A DNA stretch of 61,806 nt from Acidimicrobiaceae bacterium (GTDB lineage Bacteria; Actinomycetota; Acidimicrobiia; Acidimicrobiales; RAAP-2): NCBI GenBank assembly GCA_003162395.1, contig PMON01000041.1, positions 1,143-62,948 of the forward strand, given 5' to 3'. The position numbers and the translations under genes were made by a program. Below the pieces are notes generated by a model. The model made no database searches. It was given only the letters and a program-made list of their open reading frames with translations, and had not been told where the DNA came from. Shown here piece by piece: positions 10,065-31,984 of the stretch. The stretch's first letter is position 1. Every line of letters begins with the position of its first letter.

Positions 10065-12026
10065 TCAGGGTAAAAGTCCGTTGATCGTTCGGAAGAGTTC
10101 TTCGAAGCGATCCAGGGCTCCGTCCATTCCTGGTAGGCCGCCAGCTCCCGATTCGACGAGGAACCGGGCAGGGCCGAAGTGGTCGAACTCTGGGTCGCCG
10201 GCCCCAAGAGTCTTGAAGTGTGTCGCCACTTCAACAACAACTCTCTCTACAGCTCCAGACGGCGGCACTGCACTGAGGCACTTCTTGCCTTTTAGGTCAT
10301 AGGTCGCATTGACCAGAGCGACATACGTCTCTCGTCCAATGATGTCTTCGATGTCAGCCTCAGTTGTTCCAGAGACAAACATGTCCGCGGTGATGACGTG
10401 GCCCTCTTGGAGCAACTCTGACTCTCGAAGGTCCTTGATCTTCTTCTTTACTCCATCGGCATAGTCAGCGAGTACGGCAACGTGCAGCTTGCTTCCGCCG
10501 AAGAGAGTCATGAATCCGCTGACCTTTGTGATCCCTCCGCATGGCGTGATCGTCCAACGTCGATCCAAGCCAGTCCGTTTCGCGCGTTGCAGTTCGTTCG
10601 AGAACCAATTCAAGTACAAGAGATCCGAGGGGCCTTCGACAAGAAGGCAGTGCTCGCCGACGAACAAACTCTGAGTGATGTCGTAGCCAAGGGCTGCCTG
10701 AAGAGGGAACAAGGTATCCACGTCGGTGCTTAGCACGTCATCGCCGACTCTCGTACCTAGTACTTCATCATTCGGTCCCGACGCGTCTTCAACCGTCCGA
10801 CAAGAGAGAAGGTCAGCAGCGTCGATCATGAACGGTGAATGAGTAGTGTAGATGACTTGGTACTCGGCAAGAAGCTCTTCCTTGATAAATCGGAGCAAGT
10901 CAGACTGAGCGCGAGCATGAAGTGAAAGTCCAGGCTCGTCGAGGAGTACAACGAGATTGTCGCCGTATTGGCGTGTCACTTCTGAAAACCAAACCAGGAA
11001 CGAAAAGAACCAGATGAATCCGGCGCTTCTCTCATCGAGACGGATTGTCATTCCATGGCGATTGTTCTTAATTCGGGTGCGAAAGACCTTGCCGGAGTTG
11101 AATGGGGCTGGGTCGCCAGGAGCTCCCTCGTCGAATCTGAAGTGGACCTCGAGGTGCTTGTTCTGTGTCCAGTACTTGAATATGCGAGCGGTCAATCGGT
11201 TCTGAACTCCCTCCAGCTTCGCAATGAGTGGCTCGAACTCGGTGATCCCACCAATGGCATCCGGTGTCATACCAACCATCGATAAGAGCGCGAGGAAGAC
11301 TTTGTTTCCGGGATCCTGGTCAAGTGTGCTGTTCGCAATCTCTTGAGAAAGCTGGTTTAATGACACTTGGCCTGGAAGGCGATCGTAACTGGAGTAATAG
11401 AGGAATCGCGGCAAACGGGAATCGAGAAACGCATCGACCGCACCTCGAAGACTCACGGTGCCGAGCCTGTCCTGCAGCGTCTGGCTGAGAGCTTCCTGAT
11501 TGGGAGTCTTCTCTGTGATTGCTGAAAGAGACTCGATCAGCTTCTGTGGCGTGCTTATGTCGGCTAGCGACTGCTTCTCGACGTCGCTCAATCCCGATGA
11601 CTCAAGCAAGTGCGTCACGGCTCCTGCGTAGTCGATGTCGACCGTCCACTGGCGCTTGTTGTCGTACGACTTCGCAAGTGCGACCGAGGAACTTCTAAGG
11701 ATCTCCGCGCCAACCAACGCATTGATGTGGTCGACCTCGTCATGCGTGAGGTCCCACTCAGTCTCGATGGGAGTTGCGACCTCTCCAGACTCCTCATACT
11801 CGGAGAGGTGAAGTCTCGGATAATGCTCCGTCACATTGAAGTCGGCCCGCGCAGGTTGAACAGAATTCAGCTTCTCTAACGCTTCGAGCAACGCTGTCTT
11901 CCCAGATTCGTTCTTGCCAACCAGGCACGTAAGGTCGCCGACGGTAAACCACTGTGAGTCAAGGACACTCTTGTAGTGACTGACACGCATTCGCTTCAGC
12001 TTCATGATTGAACCGGCCGCCGGCAT
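10065..12026 (-). CDS. OLD-family ATP-dependent nuclease (AAA ATPase plus TOPRIM)
   Basis: A 653-residue protein of the overcoming-lysogenization-defect family. The N-terminal ABC-type ATPase has a Walker A GKNESGKT at 37-44 and a Walker B region LVVLLDEPG followed by LH, typical of the RecF/SMC-like ATPases in this group. The C-terminal TOPRIM domain shows LLVEGPSDLLYL with its metal-binding Glu and a VLADYAD strand. These enzymes cut DNA and act in phage defence. No UvrD-like helicase partner is adjacent, so this is a stand-alone (class 1) OLD rather than a Gabija pair. The start may instead be the ATG at 12005, seven codons in; no ribosome site decides. It follows the broken McrB-like gene on the same strand. 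Confidence 0.85.
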   Translation of the reverse strand: MPAAGSIMKLKRMRVSHYKSVLDSQWFTVGDLTCLVGKNESGKTALLEALEKLNSVQPARADFNVTEHYPRLHLSEYEESGEVATPIETEWDLTHDEVDHINALVGAEILRSSSVALAKSYDNKRQWTVDIDYAGAVTHLLESSGLSDVEKQSLADISTPQKLIESLSAITEKTPNQEALSQTLQDRLGTVSLRGAVDAFLDSRLPRFLYYSSYDRLPGQVSLNQLSQEIANSTLDQDPGNKVFLALLSMVGMTPDAIGGITEFEPLIAKLEGVQNRLTARIFKYWTQNKHLEVHFRFDEGAPGDPAPFNSGKVFRTRIKNNRHGMTIRLDERSAGFIWFFSFLVWFSEVTRQYGDNLVVLLDEPGLSLHARAQSDLLRFIKEELLAEYQVIYTTHSPFMIDAADLLSCRTVEDASGPNDEVLGTRVGDDVLSTDVDTLFPLQAALGYDITQSLFVGEHCLLVEGPSDLLYLNWFSNELQRAKRTGLDRRWTITPCGGITKVSGFMTLFGGSKLHVAVLADYADGVKKKIKDLRESELLQEGHVITADMFVSGTTEADIEDIIGRETYVALVNATYDLKGKKCLSAVPPSGAVERVVVEVATHFKTLGAGDPEFDHFGPARFLVESGAGGLPGMDGALDRFEELFRTINGLLP

Positions 12027-12145: not shown

Positions 12146-13240
12146 TTACTGAGGGTGAATGACCCGATGACAGTCAAGCCGAGGCGGACGGCGACGAGCC
12201 TCCTTGCTTGCGTGACCTCCATAGAAAGATCCATCCGTTGAGTCAAGTACCTCTAGCCGCAAACGTGTATGGGTCCTGATGGTGAGATCCCCCCTCGCAG
12301 ACGAATTCCCACCTGCCTTCCCCGAGAGATCCGATCCGGACCACGTTGTCCTCGATCCCCATATCGGACACAGAGCGTGATTAGGCACAAAGATCGTGCG
12401 GGGAGCCTTCCTCTGGGATCGATTGGCAATTGCCTGACGAAGCTTGGATGGGACAGTTCGGTATTCCAGGAGCCCGTTCCAGTCATCTTCATTGATCTCA
12501 CCTACGCCCGTAGGTCGCTCCCTCCACAACGTCACGCAGAAGGCGAGGGACTGCGCGTCGAGCCGATCCCGAAGCGCCAGATCAAACGAGCCTGCCTCCA
12601 CCTGCATGACATCGAAAAATGCAAGCGCGTGTTCGTACGTGTCGCCGAGCGAGAGTTCCTTCTCGGCTTTAGGCACGCGCGTCAGTTCGCAAGCCCGTTC
12701 GACGACCGTGACCCTGTAGTTGGGCCACTCGACGTAGTCGATAGCACCAAGAAGGTACGCGGCCACGTTCAGCCGTACACCTCTACCGGACAGCACGGCA
12801 TCTGGCAGGACCTGGCTAAACCGATCCAGCCTCATGCCTACTGGACTGCCATCGTCAATCCAGAGAGCCTCAAGTGCCGCCCTGCCGTCTTCGGGACTTG
12901 ACTCGAGCCACTCCAGAAAGGGCCACCACGCGAAGCGGATCACGATGTTGTTGTCGGGATTGCTGAACGCACTTCGAACCGACGGGAGCCACTCGTGGGA
13001 GCTGAGCAACGACTCACGTGCTCTGGCGAGGCGTTCCGCCGCCTTTTTCTTGTAGACACGCTCCTCTTTGTCGAACGTGGGCATGTCCAGGAATTTCTTG
13101 GCCCAGAAGAAGAACGAGCCCCATCCGGTCTCCATGTGATCGTCCATGATGGACAACGATACAAGTGGGTCGCGAGCTTGCAGTCTTGCCTTCAGGGCCG
13201 CGTGCCGCGATCCGATTTGCTGGATCCCTGTCGAGCACAT
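12146..13240 (-). pseudogene. McrB-like protein, N-terminal domain only; motor domain missing
   Basis: About 250 residues resemble the N-terminal region of actinobacterial McrB-type AAA proteins: an FVxRFxWWPFLEWL segment, RLDRFSQVLP..SGRGVRLNVAAYLLGAIDYVEWPNYRV, and LRDRLDAQSLAFCV. In intact relatives this precedes an AAA+ NTPase domain with Walker motifs; none is present here. From about 12350 the translation degrades, and a neighbouring frame becomes protein-like after a GGGG run (IEDNVVRIGSLGEGRWEF), suggesting a frameshift. A third frame (12034-12246) also looks coding. The GTG/ATG start is uncertain; an internal ATG at 13147 is an alternative. It is likely a decayed restriction component next to the OLD nuclease. 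A stand-alone protein of this form cannot be excluded. Confidence 0.55.
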
Positions 13241-13301
13241 TCCGCAGCCTCAACCATCGTTCGGAGTGACGTCTGTCACATCGACCGGCGATCATGGAGA
13301 C

Positions 13302-13742
13302 ATGGTCGCGAGCAGCGCACGATTCGATCGTCGGTACCGCGACTTGATGGTCAATTCAGTTGTGGGAAATCTCCCCGAGGTGCTCATGGCTCGATACGTC
13401 GCAGACGAGCGAGTGGCATGCATCATTGAAGCTGGTGGGAATCGCTACGTGCAGTTCCTCGTGACTGAGGATCAGCACGTTGTAATCGAGTGCGTATCGA
13501 ATCGGTTCCTCGAGGGTGAGGACCTGCTCACTCTTGACGACGAGCTCACGCTCCTGTCGGCCGGATTCGCTCCGCCCGAGCCCGATCACGAGCCTCATCC
13601 CAATTGGTGGTGGCACGCTGATAACCAAGCTGGGATCATGGAGGCGTGTGTGTTGGCGGCTCTTGTGCTTCGAGACGTGTTCAAGCTCTCCGGTGCCTCG
13701 CGCGTCGATCTCATTGAACGGCCGCTGGGGAGTCGCAGATGA
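13302..13742 (+). CDS. YbjN/T3SS-chaperone-like protein (TY-Chap type)
   Basis: A 146-residue soluble protein. It shows the RYVQFLV...VVIECVSNRFLEGEDLLTLDDELTLLSAGF pattern, followed by PNWWW, which I associate with the YbjN/CesT-like peptide-binding chaperone fold found as small stand-alone actinobacterial proteins. Such proteins are thought to bind partner peptides; no substrate is known here. The start ATG at 13302 is supported by GGAGA just upstream; the frame is open further but that part looks non-coding and is antisense to the McrB-like gene. It is followed by the DUF1810 gene after 72 bp on the same strand. Confidence 0.55.
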   Translation: MVASSARFDRRYRDLMVNSVVGNLPEVLMARYVADERVACIIEAGGNRYVQFLVTEDQHVVIECVSNRFLEGEDLLTLDDELTLLSAGFAPPEPDHEPHPNWWWHADNQAGIMEACVLAALVLRDVFKLSGASRVDLIERPLGSRR

Positions 13743-13814
13743 CGTTGGCGTGCGACACTCGCGCCCAGTTCAATCCGCGCTCTCGGGACCGGAGCGACTG
13801 GCGATAGCTACGTG

Positions 13815-14225
13815 ATGCGGAACTACGACCTTGAGCGATTCGTCAGAGCTCAGGACGCGGACAGATCATTCGACCAAGCCATGAGAGAGCTCGATGCGGG
13901 CCAGAAGCGATCCCACTGGATGTGGTGGGTTTTCCCTCAGACGATCGGCCTCGGTTCATCGGGTACGTCAAGGAAGTACGCGATCGGCTCGCTTGAAGAA
14001 GCGATTGCGTATGCGGCACATCCAATACTCGGTCTTCGCCTTCGGGAAGCTACGAGGCGAGTTCTTGCCATCGAGGGACATTCGGCGCTCGAGATCCTTG
14101 GTTCGGCGATCGATGAGAAGAACCTCCGTTCATCGATGATGCTCTTTCTTCGCGCGTGTCCCAGTGACCCACTCTTCGCCCTCGTCCTTGACAAGTACTA
14201 CAACGGCCAGTCGAGTGCGTGTTGA
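13815..14225 (+). CDS. DUF1810 family protein
   Basis: A 136-residue protein that matches the DUF1810 family along its length: DLERFVRAQDADRSFDQAMREL, then KRSHWMWWVFPQ, GLG-S--S-KYAI, EAIAYAAHPILGLRL and the terminal DKYYNG. The family is widespread in bacteria and has no established biochemical role. The C-terminus stops shortly after DKYYNG, slightly earlier than usual relatives, which carry a few more residues. The ATG at 13815 directly follows a GTG at 13812 that could also serve. Its operon mate may be the YbjN-like gene upstream. Confidence 0.85.
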   Translation: MRNYDLERFVRAQDADRSFDQAMRELDAGQKRSHWMWWVFPQTIGLGSSGTSRKYAIGSLEEAIAYAAHPILGLRLREATRRVLAIEGHSALEILGSAIDEKNLRSSMMLFLRACPSDPLFALVLDKYYNGQSSAC

Positions 14226-14314
14226 TGCTGGTGAGAACCTTCCGATCCGTGGGCGGATCGAGCTGGCTTCAGTGTCTGCTCCAAGAGCGGGCGTCATGAT
14301 GCGACACTGACGGC

Positions 14315-15283
14315 ATGGGCGCTTACGACATCGTGGGGGACGTGCACGGGTACGCGGACAAGCTGGAGGGTCTTCTCAAGGCTCTCGGCTACAAGGACCA
14401 CGACGGGACCTTTCGCCGCGCTGGCAGTCAGGTGATATTCGTGGGCGACCTCATCGACCGCGGACCGCAGCAGGTCGACACCGTCAACCTCGTGCGCTCC
14501 ATGGTCGACGCTGGAACTGCCCAGATCGTGATGGGCAATCACGAATTCAACGCGATCTCGTACGCAACCGAGAATCCGGACCGTCCGGGCGACTTCATGC
14601 GGAGCCACGAGGGAGAGAAGGGCCAGACACATCAACAGGACCACAAAGAGTTTCTTGAGGAGTTCCGATTTGGCTCAGCCCGTCACCGTGAAGTCCTCTC
14701 ATGGTTTCGGACGATGCCGCTGTGGTTGTCGCTCGACGAGATCCGGATCGTTCACGCGTGCTGGCATGAGCCCTCCTTGCACGCCTTACGACAAGCGCTT
14801 GCAGCTTCCAACGGCCTGAGCGACGAGTTCATCATCGAGGCGAGCACGAAGGGCAGCGGTGCACACGGCTTGATCGAGACGACGCTCAAAGGCCCCGAGT
14901 TGCACCTCTCGGATTACGGGGCGCCGCCGTTCCGTGACAAGGGCATGCGGCTTCGCTACGACGCTCGCATCAGATGGTGGGATGACCGCGCCACGACGCT
15001 CCGAGAGGTCGCAGAGATCCAGCTTGGGGCGCTCGGAGAGGACATGGAGCCCTATCCCCAACTGTCGAGGACGCCATGCGACAAGAGCGAGGCGCTCCGA
15101 TACGACGACGCGGTGCCTGTGTACTTCGGGCACTACTGGCGGTCAGGGGCGCCCACGCTCGCCGGCACGCGAACCATCTGCGTCGACTACAGCGCAGGCT
15201 CGAAGGCGGAGTCTCTCGTGGCTTACCGATACGAGGGATCCGGTGATCTCTCGGACGAGAACTTCGTGGCGTTCCCTGGTTGA
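14315..15283 (+). CDS. Calcineurin-like metallophosphoesterase (PrpE/ApaH-type)
   Basis: A 322-residue cytoplasmic phosphoesterase. The dinuclear metal motifs are clear: DIVGDVHGYADKL near the start, VGDLIDRGPQQ about residue 45, VMGNHEFN about residue 70, VHACWH near 150, and a late YFGHYW histidine near 270. This order and the RGP motif place it with diadenosine tetraphosphatase and PrpE-type Ser/Thr phosphatases; the substrate cannot be told from sequence. It starts at the ATG at 14315, 89 bp after the DUF1810 gene. Related enzymes occur next to RNA-repair kinases, but no such partner is present here. Confidence 0.85.
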   Translation: MGAYDIVGDVHGYADKLEGLLKALGYKDHDGTFRRAGSQVIFVGDLIDRGPQQVDTVNLVRSMVDAGTAQIVMGNHEFNAISYATENPDRPGDFMRSHEGEKGQTHQQDHKEFLEEFRFGSARHREVLSWFRTMPLWLSLDEIRIVHACWHEPSLHALRQALAASNGLSDEFIIEASTKGSGAHGLIETTLKGPELHLSDYGAPPFRDKGMRLRYDARIRWWDDRATTLREVAEIQLGALGEDMEPYPQLSRTPCDKSEALRYDDAVPVYFGHYWRSGAPTLAGTRTICVDYSAGSKAESLVAYRYEGSGDLSDENFVAFPG

Positions 15284-15319
15284 CGAGTCACGCGCAGCAG
15301 GTGAGCGTGAGATCGAGAG

Positions 15320-15616
15320 TCACGGATACGGATCGGCAGGACCGGGCAAGGTGCCGCCGCTCAGACGGCGGATCTCACGAACCAGCGCCTCCACGTACTC
15401 GAGCTCCCGTCCAACCGGTGGCCGGTCGATTTGCAGGTATCTACGTTGCTCAAAGAGGAGAATCGTCCGGATTGCGTCGAGGCTGTCGGGCAAGGTGCCA
15501 GCCACTCCATACACGGCGGCAGCGTCGTTCGCAATTTCGAGAACATCCTGAATTTCTCCGACACGGTCGTAGGCGTTGAATGAGAGTGCGAACCCTGTGA
15601 GTGCTTCGCGTACCAT
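15320..15616 (-). CDS. Small soluble protein, unknown; may continue the upstream ORF
   Basis: A 98-residue acidic helical protein (YDRVGEIQDVLEIANDAAAVYG, then DAIRTILLFEQRRYL). No family is recognised and no cysteine motifs or membrane segments are seen. It begins at an ATG 34 bp below the stop of a 45-residue ORF in another frame. The same frame as this gene is open back to the end of that ORF, reading VPSDTEQDKQDRTER, but contains no start codon there. This suggests either close coupling or a single gene split by a frameshift near 15650. Confidence 0.45.
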   Translation of the reverse strand: MVREALTGFALSFNAYDRVGEIQDVLEIANDAAAVYGVAGTLPDSLDAIRTILLFEQRRYLQIDRPPVGRELEYVEALVREIRRLSGGTLPGPADPYP

Positions 15617-18799: not shown

Positions 18800-19220
18800 T
18801 GGTCCGCCGTCGCAACACCGGCTGACGTCTTCGAGATCGCGCTCGTACTGCGGGACGCCAGCCTCGACAAAAACTCCCGCAGATACCAATCCCGGCCGGA
18901 AGCCTCAACGTTGTGAGCATGCGTGAACGCCTGTTCGGCCAAGCGATGGTTCTGCGTTGGTCTAACGCCGCGATGCCCCTGACGAATCGCTGCGTCTGTC
19001 GCCCCGAGCGTCGATGACAACCTTGGTCGACGATGTCGAACTCAGCAGGGAACGGCTCTCCGCCAACCCACTCCCCCAGCGAGTGAATTCCTGTCAGGGA
19101 TCCGCAGGCGCCTCAAGCCGGGGTGCCGCCGACGTCATCCGGCGGCCAGGCATTGTTGCCCTGCAATCCATAGGCTACGGCGAGATCCTGCCACCGGGGG
19201 GCTGGCTACGATCGTTCACC
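18800..19220. other. Gap with possible small ORF
   Basis: No clear gene. A minus-strand 75-codon frame (18793-19020) has a partly protein-like middle but no supporting site. The plus-strand frame of the next gene is open back to a TTG at 19014, but its translation there is poor. A TACGAT hexamer at 19207-19212 lies eight bases before the ATG at 19221 and is a likely -10 element. Confidence 0.4.
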
Positions 19221-20504
19221 ATGAAGTGCTCACCCGATCGGTTTGCTGTCTCAAAGTTCTCTCGCGAACGCAACCTGATCAACCTTGAGCCCAGCTACCA
19301 ACGCGAAGGCGGCGTCTGGTCCGTCCCGAAGCAGCAACTGTTCATCGACTCACTACTCAATCAATACGACATTCCAAAGATCTATCTGCACAAGGTTGAT
19401 CGTGACGCGACAGGTCTCGACTACGCGGTCATCGACGGGAAGCAGCGAATCAGCACGATATTCGCCTTCCTTGATGGTGATTTGGATTTGGCAGACGACT
19501 TCCAGTACGGCGGGCCGCCGTGTGAGGACCCGCCGACGAAAGAAGTTCGATTCTCTGGGCTTTCGACCTCGGCGCAGGAGATCTTCAAGGAGTGCACGTT
19601 GGACGTCGTGATCGTCGAAACGTCGGATGAGGACGAGATCGAGGAGCTCTTTTCCAGACTCAATAACGGAGAGAAGTTGAATGCAGCCGAGAGTCGAAAC
19701 GCCATCGGCGGCAAGGTCACCGAGCTGATCCGGGAACTGTGCTCGGAATCCTTCTTCTCCAGCAAGCTCGGTTTCTCGAATCGGAGGTATGCGCACTACG
19801 AGGTGGCTTGCAAGCTGCTCTATTTGGAACACTGTGCGGCGCAGTCATCATCCCGAGACTGGTTTGTTGATCTCAAGAAGAAGCATCTCGACGCATTCGT
19901 CAAGGATCATCGGGTGATGAGCGACCGAGATGCAGTCAAACTGATGCGGGCTGTCAAGGCAAACTTGAGGCGCATCTCGCCTGTGTTTGACGATAAAGAC
20001 ATAGAGCTTTCAAAACAGTCCTACCCGCAGCTGATGTACCTCTTTCTCAAAACCATCATGGAGTCGTACGGAGCAATCGACCTGGCAGCGAGGCTGAGAC
20101 GCTTCTTGGTGGACTTTAGACAGGAGCGCTTCTACAACCTTCAGAAGAACGAAGACGAACGCGACGCCGAACTTGCGGAATTCGGCCGCTTGATGCAGCA
20201 GGGTACGAATGATTCAGGAAGCATGAAGGAGCGCGTGAATATTCTGACGAAGAGATTTCTAAAGGCCAACGAAGACGTGACGCTCCTAGATCCCCGTCGG
20301 GCATTCTCCCTCGAGGAGCGTTGGGTGCTATGGCAGCGCTCAGGAAAGGAGTGTGAGATTTGTCACGTAGGTCTGGCAACGCTCGACGAGCTCGATGGTG
20401 ATCATATCGTCTGGCACACCGTGGGAGGGCCGACGACACTTGAGAATGCGAGGGCGCTGTGCATTCCATGCAATCGCGGGCACGTTGAGTCGCAGCGGGA
20501 CTAA
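19221..20504 (+). CDS. DUF262-HNH endonuclease (GmrSD/SspE-like, stand-alone)
   Basis: A 427-residue protein. The N-terminal DUF262 domain has PSYQREGGVWS near residue 25-35 and IDGKQRIST at 71-79, the family's DGQQR-type NTP-binding motif. The middle is helical. The C-terminus is an HNH nuclease: CEIC, then DGDHIVWHTVGGPTTLENARALCIPCNRGH, with a zinc-binding Cys4 frame around the catalytic DH. In GmrSD-type restriction enzymes DUF262 is usually joined to DUF1524; here a classical HNH domain takes that place. Such enzymes cut modified phage DNA in known cases; the target here is unknown. The start at 19221 is chosen because family similarity begins there and a TACGAT promoter element sits eight bases upstream. 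Confidence 0.85.
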   Translation: MKCSPDRFAVSKFSRERNLINLEPSYQREGGVWSVPKQQLFIDSLLNQYDIPKIYLHKVDRDATGLDYAVIDGKQRISTIFAFLDGDLDLADDFQYGGPPCEDPPTKEVRFSGLSTSAQEIFKECTLDVVIVETSDEDEIEELFSRLNNGEKLNAAESRNAIGGKVTELIRELCSESFFSSKLGFSNRRYAHYEVACKLLYLEHCAAQSSSRDWFVDLKKKHLDAFVKDHRVMSDRDAVKLMRAVKANLRRISPVFDDKDIELSKQSYPQLMYLFLKTIMESYGAIDLAARLRRFLVDFRQERFYNLQKNEDERDAELAEFGRLMQQGTNDSGSMKERVNILTKRFLKANEDVTLLDPRRAFSLEERWVLWQRSGKECEICHVGLATLDELDGDHIVWHTVGGPTTLENARALCIPCNRGHVESQRD

Positions 20505-20546: not shown

Positions 20547-21587
20547 TCATGGGAGTCCAGCGCCTTGCTCTGGCAGTTGCAGATCCACAATCGGAGTCGA
20601 ATCACTGCCCCCAGCTCCCCACTCGTCAGGACTAGAGGCAACGAGCCACTGGTTGCACACCGCCATGTCGATCACATACGACACCCCCTCGACTCCGACC
20701 GGAAGACCACCGGCAAACGCATCGACCGTCAGCCGAGGGAATCCCGGCGCAACCGTGTACAAATGCTCCCCAAGGATTCTAAATGGTTCCTCGTACAGAG
20801 CACGGTGTGCGGGGTTGTAGTCACGGAGGCTGAGTTTGTGTGCAAACTCCTCGCCTGATTGTGGATAGCCGCGCAGCCCGGCGGTAATCCGATCGACGAG
20901 GTCGGCGAGCGTGTTGTGAGCGAGCCTGTCTCTCACGACTAGGAGGCTGAACAACAGGAGCTCTCCCTCCTCTGGATCGGCCAACTGATCGAGGTGCTGG
21001 ATGCGGTGCAGGACCGCGCCATCGGCGCGTCGCGTTGCCGCCTTCACCTCCACTGAACAGTCAGACCACTGGAAGTCATGGCGCGATCCAGTTGATGCGG
21101 TCCACGCATCCATGACGCCAGGCTTCCTGTGCGCCCATCGATGTAGAAACCACAGCTCCGCAAAGAGGCCGAGAACTTCTCTCTCGGACATCCGTCCGGA
21201 CTCAACGCCCCAGAACCATTGCCAACGCGAAAGAGCTGCAGCGACAGCAGCAACACGTTCGACCTGCGTGACGGGATCGGCGTCGTTGCCAATCTCAGCG
21301 GCGACTGCAGTGAATGTAGCGATGACGTCATCGGAAAGACATGTCAGATCCAGGTACTCCGCGGACTGCTCGCCCGCGACTTGGTGACGCGCAACTGTCA
21401 TCAACAAACCACGAGTCGTGGTTGGTGGAGCCGTCGTTTCGTCGGGGACCTTGAGAAGGAGGTGGCGGCGACCAATGTGATCGACTGCTACCCATATATC
21501 GGCAGCGACAATTCGCGCTTCGAGCTGCTCTGGTGTGTCTGGTGTTCCGAGAGATCGCCAGTGAGCGTCAAGCTCATCGGCGTTCAT
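20547..21587 (-). CDS. PD-(D/E)XK motif protein (DUF4420 family)
   Basis: A 346-residue protein. The nuclease signature is complete: E144 in LGLFAELWFL, D171 in GSRHDF and E180-V-K182 in VEVKAATRR. This matches the DUF4420 group, often annotated as PD-(D/E)XK motif protein, which in actinobacteria commonly sits next to a Z1-domain protein, a cytosine methyltransferase and Vsr or AIPR genes in restriction-like clusters. The start ATG at 21587 overlaps the stop of the Z1 remnant by four bases (ATGA). The upstream Z1 gene is truncated and no methyltransferase is present, so this is probably an orphan. The gene itself looks intact. It converges on the DUF262-HNH gene with 42 bp between. Confidence 0.85.
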   Translation of the reverse strand: MNADELDAHWRSLGTPDTPEQLEARIVAADIWVAVDHIGRRHLLLKVPDETTAPPTTTRGLLMTVARHQVAGEQSAEYLDLTCLSDDVIATFTAVAAEIGNDADPVTQVERVAAVAAALSRWQWFWGVESGRMSEREVLGLFAELWFLHRWAHRKPGVMDAWTASTGSRHDFQWSDCSVEVKAATRRADGAVLHRIQHLDQLADPEEGELLLFSLLVVRDRLAHNTLADLVDRITAGLRGYPQSGEEFAHKLSLRDYNPAHRALYEEPFRILGEHLYTVAPGFPRLTVDAFAGGLPVGVEGVSYVIDMAVCNQWLVASSPDEWGAGGSDSTPIVDLQLPEQGAGLP

Positions 21588-21820
21588 GCTCGCTGACTTC
21601 CCGGACCCTGGATGTACGTGACAGAGGCGGGCGACTCTGAGAACGGGAACGACATCGCGTAGCCAAGTACCGTTCGCCTGTCTTCCCCATCGCTGAAGAG
21701 CGGGACGCGATTCTTCGCATTGGCACCTGGAATTGAGTTTCCGCTGATCGGGTAGATCAAGAGTAAGCCCTCCTCGGGACTGCGCATCGAACGATATGCA
21801 TCGCCCTTGGTCGGATAAAG
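21584..21820 (-). pseudogene. C-terminal remnant of a Z1-domain protein
   Basis: The frame from about 21835 to the stop at 21584 reads LYPTKGDAYRSM, then GLLLIYPI and VLGYAMSFP, the pattern I associate with the C-terminus of Z1-domain proteins. Only some 75 residues remain of a family that normally exceeds 800. The upstream part is replaced by the group II intron fragment, with the junction between about 21815 and 21835. The four-base overlap with the DUF4420 gene shows the two were translationally coupled before the loss. Confidence 0.6.
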
Positions 21821-22369
21821 TCGATCGGTCGATGCCAGGCGCGCCCTTGTTGGCGCGCACCTGGGTCCATCCGCGCTCCACTACGACCGCCTCCGACGCC
21901 CACCCGACTCGATGCCCACTTCCCGTTGATGCGGTTATAGGGCTCGGCACTCCGACGGCAACTGCTCGCAGGCCGTCGGGCCGGGGAGGGCCTCTCCAGT
22001 TCCCGCCGCCACCTTCTGAACGTTCCACGCCCCATACACCGGAGAGTTCTTCGCGGCTGCACCCTAGGGTCTTCACCGCTTCCATGGCCTTCGCCCTGAC
22101 TACCCGGGCTCGGCTCTCCCTTGACCCCGCCCGAAGGCAGGACCCCTAACGATGCGGCAGGCTTCGCTTCATGCTGCGGACCGCTCAGTTGCTCCCCCCA
22201 GAGGGGCTTTCGACACTGGGCTTCGACCCGAACCGTTTCCAGATCGAGCCGCCAGCCTGCTACCGGGCCTCCTGGCAGTTACCCGGACCGGACTTGCACC
22301 GGTTGGCGACGACGAGCTTGTCGTTGTCAGTTCAGCTCAACAGCATCACCTCCAACTGTCTGGACGCAC
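21820..22369 (-). mobile_element. 5' fragment of a group II intron with start of its reverse-transcriptase ORF
   Basis: Read on the minus strand, the element begins at 22369 with GTGCGTCC, the GUGYG 5' end of group II introns. About 50-65 bases in it carries CCGGTGCAAGTCCGG, like the domain I element seen in many bacterial introns. Near its other end one frame encodes GWTQVRANKGAPGIDRSTL, the start of the reverse-transcriptase domain. The rest of the protein and intron domains IV-VI are missing: sequence switches to the Z1 remnant near 21815-21835. The intron therefore cannot splice or move. It lies in the same orientation as the flanking genes. Confidence 0.7.
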
Positions 22370-22407
22370 GTAGGGATGGAGTAGGGATGATGAGGGGAAT
22401 TGGAGCA

Positions 22408-22437
22408 GTTTCCGCGCCATGTATTTGGCGCGGAAAC
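22408..22437 (-). terminator. Stem-loop terminator after acyl-CoA dehydrogenase gene
   Basis: A perfect 11-bp inverted repeat (GTTTCCGCGCC with an 8-base loop) begins one base after the stop codon region of the acyl-CoA dehydrogenase gene. A long T-run is absent downstream on the minus strand, so termination efficiency is uncertain, but position and stem strength fit a transcription terminator. Confidence 0.7.
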
Positions 22438-22438
22438 C

Positions 22439-23584
22439 TCATCCCAACAGGCGTTTTGCGATGACAACCCGTTGGATTTGGTTTGTCCCTTCGTATATCT
22501 GGGTGATCTTGGCATCGCGGAAGAAGCGCTCGACGGGGAAGTCCTTCGTGTAGCCATAGCCGCCGAGGAGCTGGACCGCATCGACCGCGACGCTCATCGC
22601 AGTGTCCGAAGCAAAGGACTTGGCCGCTGCACCGAAGTAGGTCAAGTTGCCCTCTGGGTCGCCTGCGTCGATGATCGAGCACGCGCGATAGACGAGGGCG
22701 CGCGAGGCCTCGGTGCGGATCGCCATGTCAGCCAGCATGAAGCGCAGCCCCTGGAAGTTCGCGATCGGCTCGCCGAACGCCTTGCGCTCCTTCATGTAGC
22801 CACCCGCGTAGTCAACGCACGCCTGGGCGATCCCGACGGCCTGGGCGCCGATGCCTGGTCGTGAGCGGTCGAGCGTGTGCATCGCGATCATGAACCCCTC
22901 GCCCTCCTTGCCGATGAGGTGCGTGGCCGGAACTCTGACCTCGTCGAGGACGACCTCGCCCGTGGGGCTGCCGCGCAAGCCGAGCTTGTCCTCGTGCTTG
23001 GCGATCTTGACGCCCCAGTCCCTTTCGACGAGGAAGCACGAGACGCCCCTCGACCCCGTGTCAGGGTCTGTCTTCGCGAAGACGGTGTAGGTGTCCGAGA
23101 TGCCGGCGTTCGTGATCCAGTACTTGGTCCCGGTGATCACGTAGTCGTCGCCATCGCGCACCGCCCGTGCCCGCATCGACGCGACGTCGCTCCCTGCGTC
23201 CGCCTCGCTCAGGCAGTAGCTCCCCTGGATCTCCCCCGAGGCGATCTTGGGAAGGTACTCGCGCTTGAGCTCCTCGGAGCCGAAGTTCATGACCGGGAGC
23301 ATGCCCAGCTTGGAGATCAGCATCGTGACCGACGTGGACGCGCACCCCCGGGCGACCTCCTCGGCCATGATCGCCTGGGTCACCGAGTCAGCGCCTGCTC
23401 CGCCGTACTCGGCAGGGATGCCAAGGGCGGGCAGCTCAAGCTCGCGGCACGCCTCGAAGCTCTTCCACGGGAACGACGACGTCCTGTCGGCCTCCGCGGC
23501 ATGGGGCGCGATCCGCTCGTCAACGAAGCTCCGCATCGTGTCGCGGAACAGTCGCTGCTCGTCGGTGAGGTCGAATGTGGTCAC
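22439..23584 (-). CDS. Acyl-CoA dehydrogenase
   Basis: A 381-residue flavoprotein of usual family length, oxidising acyl-CoA to enoyl-CoA in beta-oxidation or branched-chain acid breakdown. The FAD and substrate motifs are present: CLSEADAGSD, YWITNAG, then near the C-terminus QLLGGYGYTKDFPVERFFRDAKITQIYEGTNQIQR, where the Glu of YEGT is the usual catalytic base. The start at 23584 has a GGAGAT site. The upstream gene stops 10 bp before it, so the two form an operon. It is the first clearly core gene to the right of the accessory region. Confidence 0.93.
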   Translation of the reverse strand: MTTFDLTDEQRLFRDTMRSFVDERIAPHAAEADRTSSFPWKSFEACRELELPALGIPAEYGGAGADSVTQAIMAEEVARGCASTSVTMLISKLGMLPVMNFGSEELKREYLPKIASGEIQGSYCLSEADAGSDVASMRARAVRDGDDYVITGTKYWITNAGISDTYTVFAKTDPDTGSRGVSCFLVERDWGVKIAKHEDKLGLRGSPTGEVVLDEVRVPATHLIGKEGEGFMIAMHTLDRSRPGIGAQAVGIAQACVDYAGGYMKERKAFGEPIANFQGLRFMLADMAIRTEASRALVYRACSIIDAGDPEGNLTYFGAAAKSFASDTAMSVAVDAVQLLGGYGYTKDFPVERFFRDAKITQIYEGTNQIQRVVIAKRLLG

Positions 23585-27958: not shown

Positions 27959-29533
27959 CTACAGCTCCACGCGGTACAGCTCGTGGATCCCGTCGCCCTC
28001 ACGTAGGCGGGCGAGCACGTCATCGCTCGGCGTGCGGTCGCAGGACAGGACCATGAGCGCGGTGCCCGTGGCGGGGCTCGGCCCGACCGCCATCGAGCAG
28101 ATGGACACGTCGGCGCGGCCGAGCTCGGTGCCAACGAGCCCGATCATGCCCGGGCGGTCGTCGTTTCGCACCACGAGCATGTTCGCGGCGGGAGGGATGT
28201 CGACGGTGTGCCCGTCCACGCTCACGATCCTGGCTTCTGTTCGCGCCCCGACCGTCGCGATCGTGCCGGACACCGAGTGCGTCGGAGAGCGGACCGTGAT
28301 CACGCTCACGAACTCAGGGCTCACGATCGTGGCCGTCTCAGCCCAGATGATCCCGAAGGACTCGGCAAGTTGGGGGGCGTTCACGTAGGAAACGGACTGA
28401 TCGGAGTGCACCGAGCACACGCCCTTCAGCACGCACAGCGTGAGGATCGAGGTGCCCGCGCCGGCGAGCTCGCCCTGGAAGTGCACCTCGATCTCGCGGG
28501 GCGGCCCGCCATCGTGCAGGCAGCTAAGGAAGCTGCCGAGCTGCTCGGCGAGCGCCATGAACGGCCGTGCCACGTCAGAGACCTCCTCCGCGGCGACGTT
28601 GACCGCAAAGGGGACGAAGGCACCCGCCAGGGCGAGCTGCACCTGCTCGGCGATGGTCACGCCTGCCTTTTCCTGTGCCTCTTTCGTGCTCGCACCGAGG
28701 TGGGGTGCCACGACGACGCTGTCAAGACCGAAGAGCGGTGAGTCGGTGCACGGCTCGGTCGCGAACACGTCGAGTCCCGCGCCCTGGATGTGACCCGAGG
28801 TGATCGCCTCGACGAGGTCCGTCTCCACGATGATGCCGCCTCGCGCCGTGTTGATGATCCGCTGCCCCACCTTTGCGTGCACGAGGAGCTTGGCGTCGAT
28901 GAGGCCCATTGTCGAGGCGTTCTTCGGGAGGTGCACCGAGACGAAGTCGCTCAGCTCCATGAGCTCTTCGAGTCCCAGCAGCTCCACACCCATGTGCCGA
29001 GCGCGCTCCTCGGACACGAACGGGTCGTAGGCGACCAGGCGCATCCCAAAGGCCAGAGCGCGCTGCGCAACGAGCGCACCGACGCGTCCGAGCCCGATCA
29101 CGCCGAGTGTCTTGCCGGCAAGCTCGACGCCCTCGAACTTGGAGCGCTCCCACTTGCCCGACTTGAGCGACGCGTGCGCCTGGGGGAGGTTCCGGGCCTG
29201 GGCAAGGAGGAGTGCCATCGCCTGCTCGGCCGCGGACAACACGTTTGACTGCGGTGCGTTCACGACCATGATCCCCCGCGCGGTGGCTGCCGCCACGTCG
29301 ACATTGTCGAGTCCGATCCCCGCGCGTCCGACGACCACGAGATCGGTGCCGACATCCAGGACCTCTTCTGTGACCAGGGTCGCAGAGCGGATGATGAGGG
29401 CAGCCGCTCCCCGCACGGCCTCGAGCAGCTGCTCGGGGCTCAGGCCTGACTGAACGTCGACCTCGTGGCCGGCGGCTTGCAGTGCCTCGATGCCTGACGG
29501 GGCGATTTGCTCGGTCACTAGCACGCGTGGCAC
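27959..29533 (-). CDS. serA: D-3-phosphoglycerate dehydrogenase
   Basis: A 524-residue long-form enzyme for the first step of serine synthesis (3-phosphoglycerate to 3-phosphohydroxypyruvate). The substrate/NAD domain shows VVGRAGIGLDNVD, the nucleotide-binding GLGRVG, the LPKNASTMG region, arginine-containing NTARGGI and the His of APHLGAST. The middle part (residues 320-450) is the allosteric-substrate-binding domain of the long actinobacterial form, and the end (ANMLVVRNDDRPGMIGLVG) is an ACT domain for serine feedback. Start GTG at 29533 has AAGGAG upstream. The aminotransferase gene ends 53 bp upstream on the same strand. Confidence 0.95.
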   Translation of the reverse strand: MPRVLVTEQIAPSGIEALQAAGHEVDVQSGLSPEQLLEAVRGAAALIIRSATLVTEEVLDVGTDLVVVGRAGIGLDNVDVAAATARGIMVVNAPQSNVLSAAEQAMALLLAQARNLPQAHASLKSGKWERSKFEGVELAGKTLGVIGLGRVGALVAQRALAFGMRLVAYDPFVSEERARHMGVELLGLEELMELSDFVSVHLPKNASTMGLIDAKLLVHAKVGQRIINTARGGIIVETDLVEAITSGHIQGAGLDVFATEPCTDSPLFGLDSVVVAPHLGASTKEAQEKAGVTIAEQVQLALAGAFVPFAVNVAAEEVSDVARPFMALAEQLGSFLSCLHDGGPPREIEVHFQGELAGAGTSILTLCVLKGVCSVHSDQSVSYVNAPQLAESFGIIWAETATIVSPEFVSVITVRSPTHSVSGTIATVGARTEARIVSVDGHTVDIPPAANMLVVRNDDRPGMIGLVGTELGRADVSICSMAVGPSPATGTALMVLSCDRTPSDDVLARLREGDGIHELYRVEL

Positions 29534-29586
29534 GGCACTCCTTCTGACGGGGTCCCCAAGGCTACGGCGCGCGGCGCCGCGCTCGG

Positions 29587-30801
29587 TCAGCCCAAGGCGA
29601 ACTGAGCGATGCGCTGCACGCCCTCGACCAGGTCGGCGTCCGAGATCGCGCTCGAGAGCCGCAAGTGCCCTGGGGCGCCAAAGGCTTCACCAGGCACCGT
29701 CGCGACGTGCACGGTCGAGAGCAAGCGCTCCGCCAGCTCCGCCGACGTCGTGACCTTTCGGCCAGACAACTCTCGACCGAGCAGCCCCGAGACGTCGGGG
29801 AAGCAGTAGAAGGCGCCGTCGGGGATGACGCAGGACACGCCGTCGATCGCGTTCAGCATGGCCGTCATCGTGGTCCGCCGCCGGTCGAAGGCGGCGCGCA
29901 TCTCTGCGACGGCGGTGAGATCGCCCTCGAGCGCGGCGAGGGCCGCGCGCTGGGAGACGTTGGAGATGTTCGACGTGACCTGTGACTGGAAGGTCGTCGC
30001 GGCGTCGATCACGTCGCGTGGTCCGATCAGCCAGCCGATCCGCCACCCAGTCATCGCGTAGGTCTTGGCGACCCCGTTGACGATGAGTGCGCGATCTGCG
30101 AGCTCAGGCGCGACGACTGGCATCGAGGTCTGGACGGCGTCGCCGAACACCAGGTGCTCGTAGATCTCGTCGCACAGAACCCAGAGGTCGTTCGCCGCGG
30201 CCCACTCCCCGATCTCGCGCACGAGTGACGCGGGATAGACGGATCCGGTCGGGTTGCACGGCGAGTTGAAGATGAGCACCTTGGTCCGCTCAGTGCGTGC
30301 GGCCTCGAGGTCCCGCACCGAGGCGAGGAACCCTGACGAGGCGGTGGTCACGACCGTGACGGGCCTGCCGCCCACCAGCCGGGCCACCTCGGGATAGGTC
30401 GTCCAGTACGGCGAGGGGATGAGCACCTCGTCACCCGGGTCGAGCAGCGTCGTCAGCGCGGTAAATACGGCGTGCTTCGCACCGTTGGTGACGAGGACGT
30501 GGTCAGGGGTGGCGGCGAAACCACTGTCGCGCACGGTCTTGGCGCAGATCGCTGCTCGCAGTGCGGGTAGGCCCGCCGTCGGGGTGTAGTGGTGCATCGC
30601 GGGGTCCCGGCACGCCTCGATGGCAGCCTCGACGATCGAGTCCGGTGTCGGGAAGTCGGGCTCGCCGGCGGCGAAACTGATAACGGGCACGCCTGACGCG
30701 CGCAGCTGCTTGGCCGCGGCATCGACGGCGAGCGTGGCCGACGGCTCGAGCGACGCGAGCGCAGCGGCAACCCGGTGCGTCGCGGTCGAAGCTCCCGCCA
30801 T
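29587..30801 (-). CDS. Class I aminotransferase, aspartate aminotransferase type
   Basis: A 404-residue fold-type I PLP enzyme, probably aspartate aminotransferase. It shows [45 protein letters not shown], the NSPCNPTGS loop, the DEIYEHL aspartate and the PLP lysine in [17 protein letters not shown], followed by a C-terminal substrate arginine in LRLSSA. Start at ATG 30801 gives the usual N-terminus; an ATG at 30810 is possible. It runs head-to-head with serC, the two starts being within a few bases. Its position with serA and serC suggests a role in amino-group supply, but substrate range is not proven. Confidence 0.88.
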
Positions 30802-30811
30802 GACTGGCATG

Positions 30812-31984
30812 ATGCCATACGTGATCGACGCCGAGGACCTCACGATTCCGTCCCATCTGCTGCCCAAGGACGGGCGATTCGGCTCCGGACCCTCGAAGGT
30901 GCGTGCCGAGCAGGTTGCGTCCCTCGCCGCAGACGCCCCGACGTACCTTGGGACGTCGCACCGTCAAGCGCCGGTCCGCGACATCGTCAGCGAGATCAAA
31001 GCGGCAATGGCGTCGCTCTTCAGCCTGCCTGATGGCTACGAGGTCCTGCTCGGCAACGGGGGGACCACGACGTTCTGGGACGCCGCGACGTTCGGCCTGA
31101 TCGACACGCGCAGCGAGCACTTGTGCTTCGGCGAGTTCTCGTCGAAGTTCGCGGCTGCGACGCGCGCTGCCCCCCACCTCGCCGACCCCGTCATCATCGA
31201 GTCCGAGCCGGGCAGCCATCCCGACGTCGTCGTTGACGACTCCGTCGACACCTACGCCCTCACCCACAACGAGACGTCGACGGGAGTCATGGCCCCGATC
31301 GCGAGGCCGGCCAATGGCGAGGGCATCGTGCTCGTGGACGCGACCAGTGGCGCCGGAGGGCTCCCCGTCGACGCCTCGCAGTTCGACTGCTACTACTTCG
31401 CGCCCCAGAAGTCCTTCGCGAGCGATGCGGGCCTGTGGCTCGCGCTGTGCTCTCCAGCGGCCCTCGAGCGAGTCGAGCGCATTCCTGCGAGCCGATGGGT
31501 CCCGCCATCGCTCGACCTCAAGATCGCGCTCGACAACTCGCGGCTGAACCAGACCTACAACACCCCCGCGCTCGCGACGCTGCACCTCCTTCGCTCCCAG
31601 GTGCGCTGGATGCTGTCAAATGGTGGGCTCGAGTTCACGACGGGGCGCTGCGACCGGTCCGCCGACGTCCTCTACGGCTGGGCCGAGGCGAGCGAGTTCG
31701 CCCAGCCCTTCGTCGAGAAGCGTTCGATGCGAAGCCACGTGGTCGGCACCATCGACTTCGACCAGTCGATCGACGCGCTCAAGGTCGCGGGCATCCTGCG
31801 CGCGAACGGGGTCGTCGACACCGACCCCTACCGCAAGCTCGGCCGCAACCAGCTGCGCATCGCGTTGTTCCCCGCGATCGACGCCGAGGACGTGGCCGCG
31901 CTGTGCGGATGCATCGACTGGATCGTCGAGGCTCTCGGGCCGAGCTCGCACGGTGGGCGCACCGGCGCACGACCTCAGTCGTGA
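30812..31984 (+). CDS. serC: Phosphoserine aminotransferase
   Basis: A 390-residue PLP enzyme of the actinobacterial SerC type, converting 3-phosphohydroxypyruvate to phosphoserine. Recognisable parts are [54 protein letters not shown], the DATSGAGG region and the PLP lysine in [16 protein letters not shown]. Start at ATG 30812 or the adjacent ATG at 30809. It is divergent from the aspartate-type aminotransferase with overlapping start regions, so its promoter must lie inside that gene. Its 3' end overlaps the convergent secreted-protein gene by 10 bp. Confidence 0.93.

Follow-up and report, generated by a model that had tools for sequence, protein, structure and literature searches.

The window, i.e., the whole stretch of 61,806 nucleotides which was analysed, carries on its minus strand a complete nuclease gene of the DUF4420 family which is preceded by pieces of other genes. 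Read along this strand an acyl-CoA dehydrogenase gene is followed by a spacer of 72 bp, the 5' part of a group II intron, a piece of the intron-encoded reverse transcriptase (RT), the end of a Z1 ATPase gene, and finally the DUF4420 gene. The coordinates are collected in Table 1.

Table 1. Features of the locus, in the order of the minus strand; positions are those of the window.
Feature	Position	Strand	Basis
Acyl-CoA dehydrogenase gene; 5' flank, final core gene ahead of the intron	22442..23584	-	PF00441/PF02771/PF02770
5' exon of the intron, with hairpin	22370..22441	-	sequence, fold
IBS2 (ACTCC), -13..-9 from the 5' splice site	22378..22382	-	covarying pairing with EBS2
GTGCG, group II intron 5' end	22365..22369	-	sequence and alignment of relatives' 5' ends
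5' part of the group II intron, from domain I into domain II	21880..22369	-	78-82% identity to plasmid introns
Rfam group-II-D1D4-4 element	22169..22305	-	RF02003, 103.6 bits, E=4.7e-22
EBS2 (GGGGT)	22142..22146	-	pairing/covariation test
Intron-encoded RT fragment, ~23 codons	about 21810..21879	-	tblastn and DNA match to L039
Z1 ATPase gene end, last ~70 codons; ~860 upstream codons gone	21584..about 21809	-	alignment to intact Z1
Complete DUF4420 (MzaD-like) PD-(D/E)XK nuclease gene, 346 aa	20547..21587	-	PF14390 and catalytic residues

The DUF4420 domain of the nuclease is full-length (PF14390, E=1.3e-44, residues 7-308 of 346). A first-pass annotation of this DNA had described the residues D171, E180 and K182 as intact; in an alignment of eight DUF4420 sequences all three are indeed invariant, and E144 is likewise invariant. 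Against the MzaD model NF041934 the protein scores 60 bits, far under the cut-off of 420 bits. The coupling of the nuclease to the Z1 end by an ATGA overlap is evident from the sequence and recurs in the intact cluster L047. A Z1 C-terminus had been anticipated for positions 21584-21820; from 21584 to about 21809 the sequence aligns with the C-terminal 64-72 residues of intact Z1 proteins encoded ahead of DUF4420 genes (against L048 53% over 64 aa, E=6e-16; against L049 40% over 72 aa). These intact Z1 proteins comprise about 890-943 aa in L047 and L048, both from the same order, and in L049, a Priestia plasmid; in L046, again from the same order, the Z1 frame is split in two. Of a complete Z1 ATPase, the last ~70 aa are left at our locus.

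The intact cluster L047 consists of a C5 methylase (PF00145), a MORC/MutL-like ATPase (MzaB model, E=1.8e-56), a Z1 protein matching MzaC, and DUF4420. At our locus the places upstream of Z1 are taken by the intron and the dehydrogenase gene. A search of the own genome for the cognate C5 methylase, run without a positive control, returned no homologue, and no PF10593 domain is present elsewhere in this genome, which is 87% complete; a Z1 copy elsewhere is thus unlikely, though possible. The earlier designation as an orphan nuclease without methyltransferase agrees with these results. In a set of 397 genomes of this order, DUF4420 occurs in nine and Z1 likewise in nine. Of the nine with DUF4420 the source genome alone lacks Z1, and the other eight have it. 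In seven of these eight both genes are found a few kb apart on a single contig; in the remaining one (G224) they are on two different contigs. On contig 32 of G333 (12603-15475) and contig 13 of G067 (28827-31906) DUF4420 is located upstream, not downstream, of Z1. The locus is best read as the remnant of an MZA/CglI-like cluster, i.e., C5 methylase, MORC ATPase, Z1 and DUF4420, which was truncated into the intron.

The identity of the intron piece is equally clear. The GTGCG end, which conforms to GUGYG, the domain I element and the start of the RT, all claimed earlier, were found, and the RF02003 covariance model matches 22305-22169(-) at more than twice its gathering score of 49. Introns from Rhodococcus, Streptomyces and Embleya plasmids share 78-82% DNA identity with it, and the longest matches all end at 21880. 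Of an intact RT/maturase just ~23 codons are left. Domain V is not detected in the window with RF00029; the sole RF00029 match in the genome, sub-threshold at 38.7 bits, belongs to another intron copy on contig 34. Because domain V and the 3' end are missing, the piece cannot splice by itself. A search of the own genome for the lost 3' half and RT returned contigs 34 and 56 as the only candidates, and neither fits. Contig 56 encodes an unrelated RT. The copy on contig 34 (52500-57500) is a second, decayed intron of the same lineage, 71% identical, with a frameshifted RT; it possesses a domain I and an RT start of its own and is not the missing half. A twister-sister hit overlapping the intron (19 bits, gathering score 34) was taken as chance. 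Two more intron 5' pieces exist in genomes of the family (L040, L041), in which homology stops after about 170-180 nt; 3'-truncated copies thus recur in this bacterial family. Bacterial group II intron copies are mostly truncated or inactivated (PMC4424553).

The intron 5' end can be examined by its exon recognition. In domain I the motif CG(T/A)NN is followed by five bases which pair with the exon at -13..-9, as judged from 12 distinct intron-exon pairs. At offset -13, 51 of 60 possible base pairs form, compared with a maximum of 44 among 20,000 shuffles, none of which reaches the observed value, in a test which is not fully blind as the EBS2 motif was first spotted by eye on some of the tested sequences. 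Other exon offsets yield about half as many pairs. The EBS2 of the window forms all five pairs with its IBS2, one of them G-U, and also scores five at offset -8. A search by eye for EBS1-IBS1 gave no clear pairing for the window copy, and therefore the EBS2-IBS2 interaction alone is claimed. Because this pairing covaries, the 5' junction is in all likelihood genuine, and the intron most likely sits in its own target site just downstream of the dehydrogenase gene. The earlier proposal had placed the insertion in or near the cluster; the target used lies beside a core gene, and that the cluster already lay there at this time may be presumed. A perfect hairpin follows right after the dehydrogenase stop (GTTTCCGCGCCA...TGGCGCGGAAAC, window 22398-22445; -33.1 kcal/mol, z -7.1) and lacks a T tail. 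It brought to mind the insertion of group IIC introns at terminators, a mode which was dismissed because the hairpin is positioned further upstream than the IBS2 (-13..-9) with which introns of this lineage pair.

Downstream of 21880 the picture is more complicated than previously assumed. The RT motif VVERGWTQVRANKGAPGIDRSTLSD resembles group II RTs (64% over 25 aa, E=5e-8, tblastn against the L039 RT), and its DNA is 73% identical over 62 nt to L039:632-693. In the window this motif adjoins 21880 directly, whereas it sits ~236 nt further on in each of the intact relatives available for comparison (L030-L033, L039). Thus, 21880 is a separate second junction. The absent ~236 nt comprise the remainder of D2 through IVa and ~50 RT codons, and the deletion ends have GG(T/A)CGT in common, which suggests a deletion between short repeats. 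Internal loss is common in this intron lineage: L039, the closest relative, seems to have lost an internal part of its RT too, and the RT of the other copy in the own genome is broken. The RT/Z1 junction is located within 21796-21815, most likely at 21808-21812; RT similarity extends through 'STLSD' and Z1 similarity begins at 'TKGDAYRS'. The junction region has no match among phage records.

The first-pass annotation had correctly recognized a Z1 gene truncated next to an intron 5' piece, both halves of which are confirmed by homology, and a change of sequence within about 20 bases; the junction at 21880 went unnoticed. Its assignment of the upstream segment to an intron 5' half applies from 22369 to 21880 and, for the RT start, to ~21810, yet overlooked the 236-nt gap inside. 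One deletion with its ends in the RT and in Z1 is not enough to account for the locus, since the intron must also have lost ~236 nt internally in a separate deletion. Could these junctions have been created by the assembly? Group II introns are repeats and the genome comes in 81 contigs. However, both junctions are situated in unique DNA, the genome contains just one more related intron, which shows 71% identity and covers neither of them, and two junctions 70 bp apart do not resemble the collapse of a repeat. An assembly chimera at the intron is highly improbable.

The intron coincides with a change in the surrounding DNA. The GC content is about 0.60 over 1-22 kb and about 0.69 over 22.4-60 kb, with the step at about 22.4 kb. 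The dehydrogenase orthologue in a genome of the same genus (64% complete) is 86% identical at its 3' end, similarity stops at the stop codon, and different DNA follows; neither the intron nor DUF4420 has a match in this 64%-complete genome. The GC step and the end of conservation indicate that core DNA meets a variable, lower-GC defence island at the intron. The left 22 kb look like such an island: they carry an OLD-like AAA-TOPRIM protein (10065-12026, -), a SIR2-like protein with TPR (544-2580, -) and, convergent to the nuclease, a GmrSD_N (DUF262) plus HNH gene (19014-20504, +; PADLOC NsnA, 116 bits). The GC step at the intron, the loss of conservation at the dehydrogenase 3' end and the additional defence-like genes would also be compatible with an import of the island, in which a lower-GC segment with an already truncated Z1-DUF4420 end recombined onto the intron remnant and no cluster was deleted at this site. 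The end product would be the same functionless scar. Yet the junction displays no repeat or integrase signature, and a deletion between neighbours is simpler; we regard such an import as a possible but rather unlikely course.

We consider it reasonably probable that the locus is a scar of decay at the border of core and island, formed by intron insertion, internal loss and a second rearrangement into Z1, which left the nuclease without function. A mobile group II intron most likely inserted ~70 bp downstream of the acyl-CoA dehydrogenase gene, as the intact 5' splice junction and the EBS2-IBS2 pairing show. Comparison with its relatives shows an internal loss of ~236 nt, which would have come next. 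A second rearrangement would have joined the RT remnant to about codon 860 of Z1, thereby removing the remaining intron and the upstream genes of a cluster of C5 methylase, MORC/MutL-like ATPase, Z1 and DUF4420. The end state is an intact nuclease gene without ATP-driven motor or methylase. The order of events and a deletion in place are what we infer; no genome was found which carries the ancestral, unbroken arrangement at this site.

What might the remaining nuclease do? In CglI and NgoAVII, the Z1 systems which have been studied best, the DEAD-Z1 ATPase and ATP hydrolysis are required, and the nuclease proteins alone neither cut nor nick DNA (PMC4267653). As the characterized nucleases of Z1 systems, R.CglI and R.NgoAVII, need an active DEAD-Z1 partner, the nuclease of the window is probably inert; for DUF4420 this is an argument by analogy because the CglI and NgoAVII nucleases belong to another family. 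By this analogy the protein most likely has no restriction activity. The intact frame could reflect recent loss or continued use. Continued use would mean reading from the dehydrogenase transcript or from a frame of 512 codons which starts in the intron at 22085. The catalytic residues and the full-length domain, the open frame 22085-20547 and the shared strand with the dehydrogenase speak for it. On the other side, a strong hairpin separates dehydrogenase and intron, Z1 is retained in all eight other DUF4420 genomes of the order, and a scan for sigma-70-type sites detected no promoter near the intron piece. Such use is improbable, and the earlier suggestion that intron-derived upstream DNA feeds the reading of the nuclease gene finds no support.

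The 512-codon frame (22085-20547, -) starts in intron DNA and runs in frame through the RT remnant, with the Z1 remnant out of frame and DUF4420 in frame. A gene caller would probably annotate it as one fusion gene. It is barely conceivable that the junction made a new gene, i.e., a DUF4420 nuclease with an intron-derived N-terminal extension which acts without Z1.

Assuming that the preferred course, decay at a mobile element, is correct, this is a well-resolved case of a multi-gene restriction-like cluster dismantled at a mobile-element scar. An intact nuclease gene is left over, and automatic annotation would call it a defence gene, possibly as the 512-aa fusion. Neither a truncated group II intron nor a decayed restriction cluster is new as such; the value lies in the exact anatomy of an ordinary genomic scar, mapped almost to the base. 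Because DUF4420 otherwise always occurs with Z1 in this order, the orphan is a useful natural test of whether such a nuclease works on its own.

With the anti-phage system MZA (MzaB-MzaC-MzaD) and with clusters of C5 methylase, MORC, Z1 and DUF4420 such as L047, the locus shares a Z1 C-terminus which is ATGA-coupled to DUF4420; it differs in that the methylase, the MORC ATPase and ~860 Z1 codons are gone. As in CglI and NgoAVII the nuclease is the partner of a DEAD-Z1 ATPase, yet R.CglI is a PLD-B3 protein, the nuclease of the window is a DUF4420 protein, and its ATPase is gone. With the RF02003-type actinobacterial introns of Rhodococcus and Streptomyces plasmids the intron shares the 78-82% identity of the 5' part, the type of 5' end and the EBS2-IBS2 geometry, whereas the copy in the window has the internal deletion of ~236 nt and has lost the RT almost entirely, together with domains V-VI and the 3' exon.
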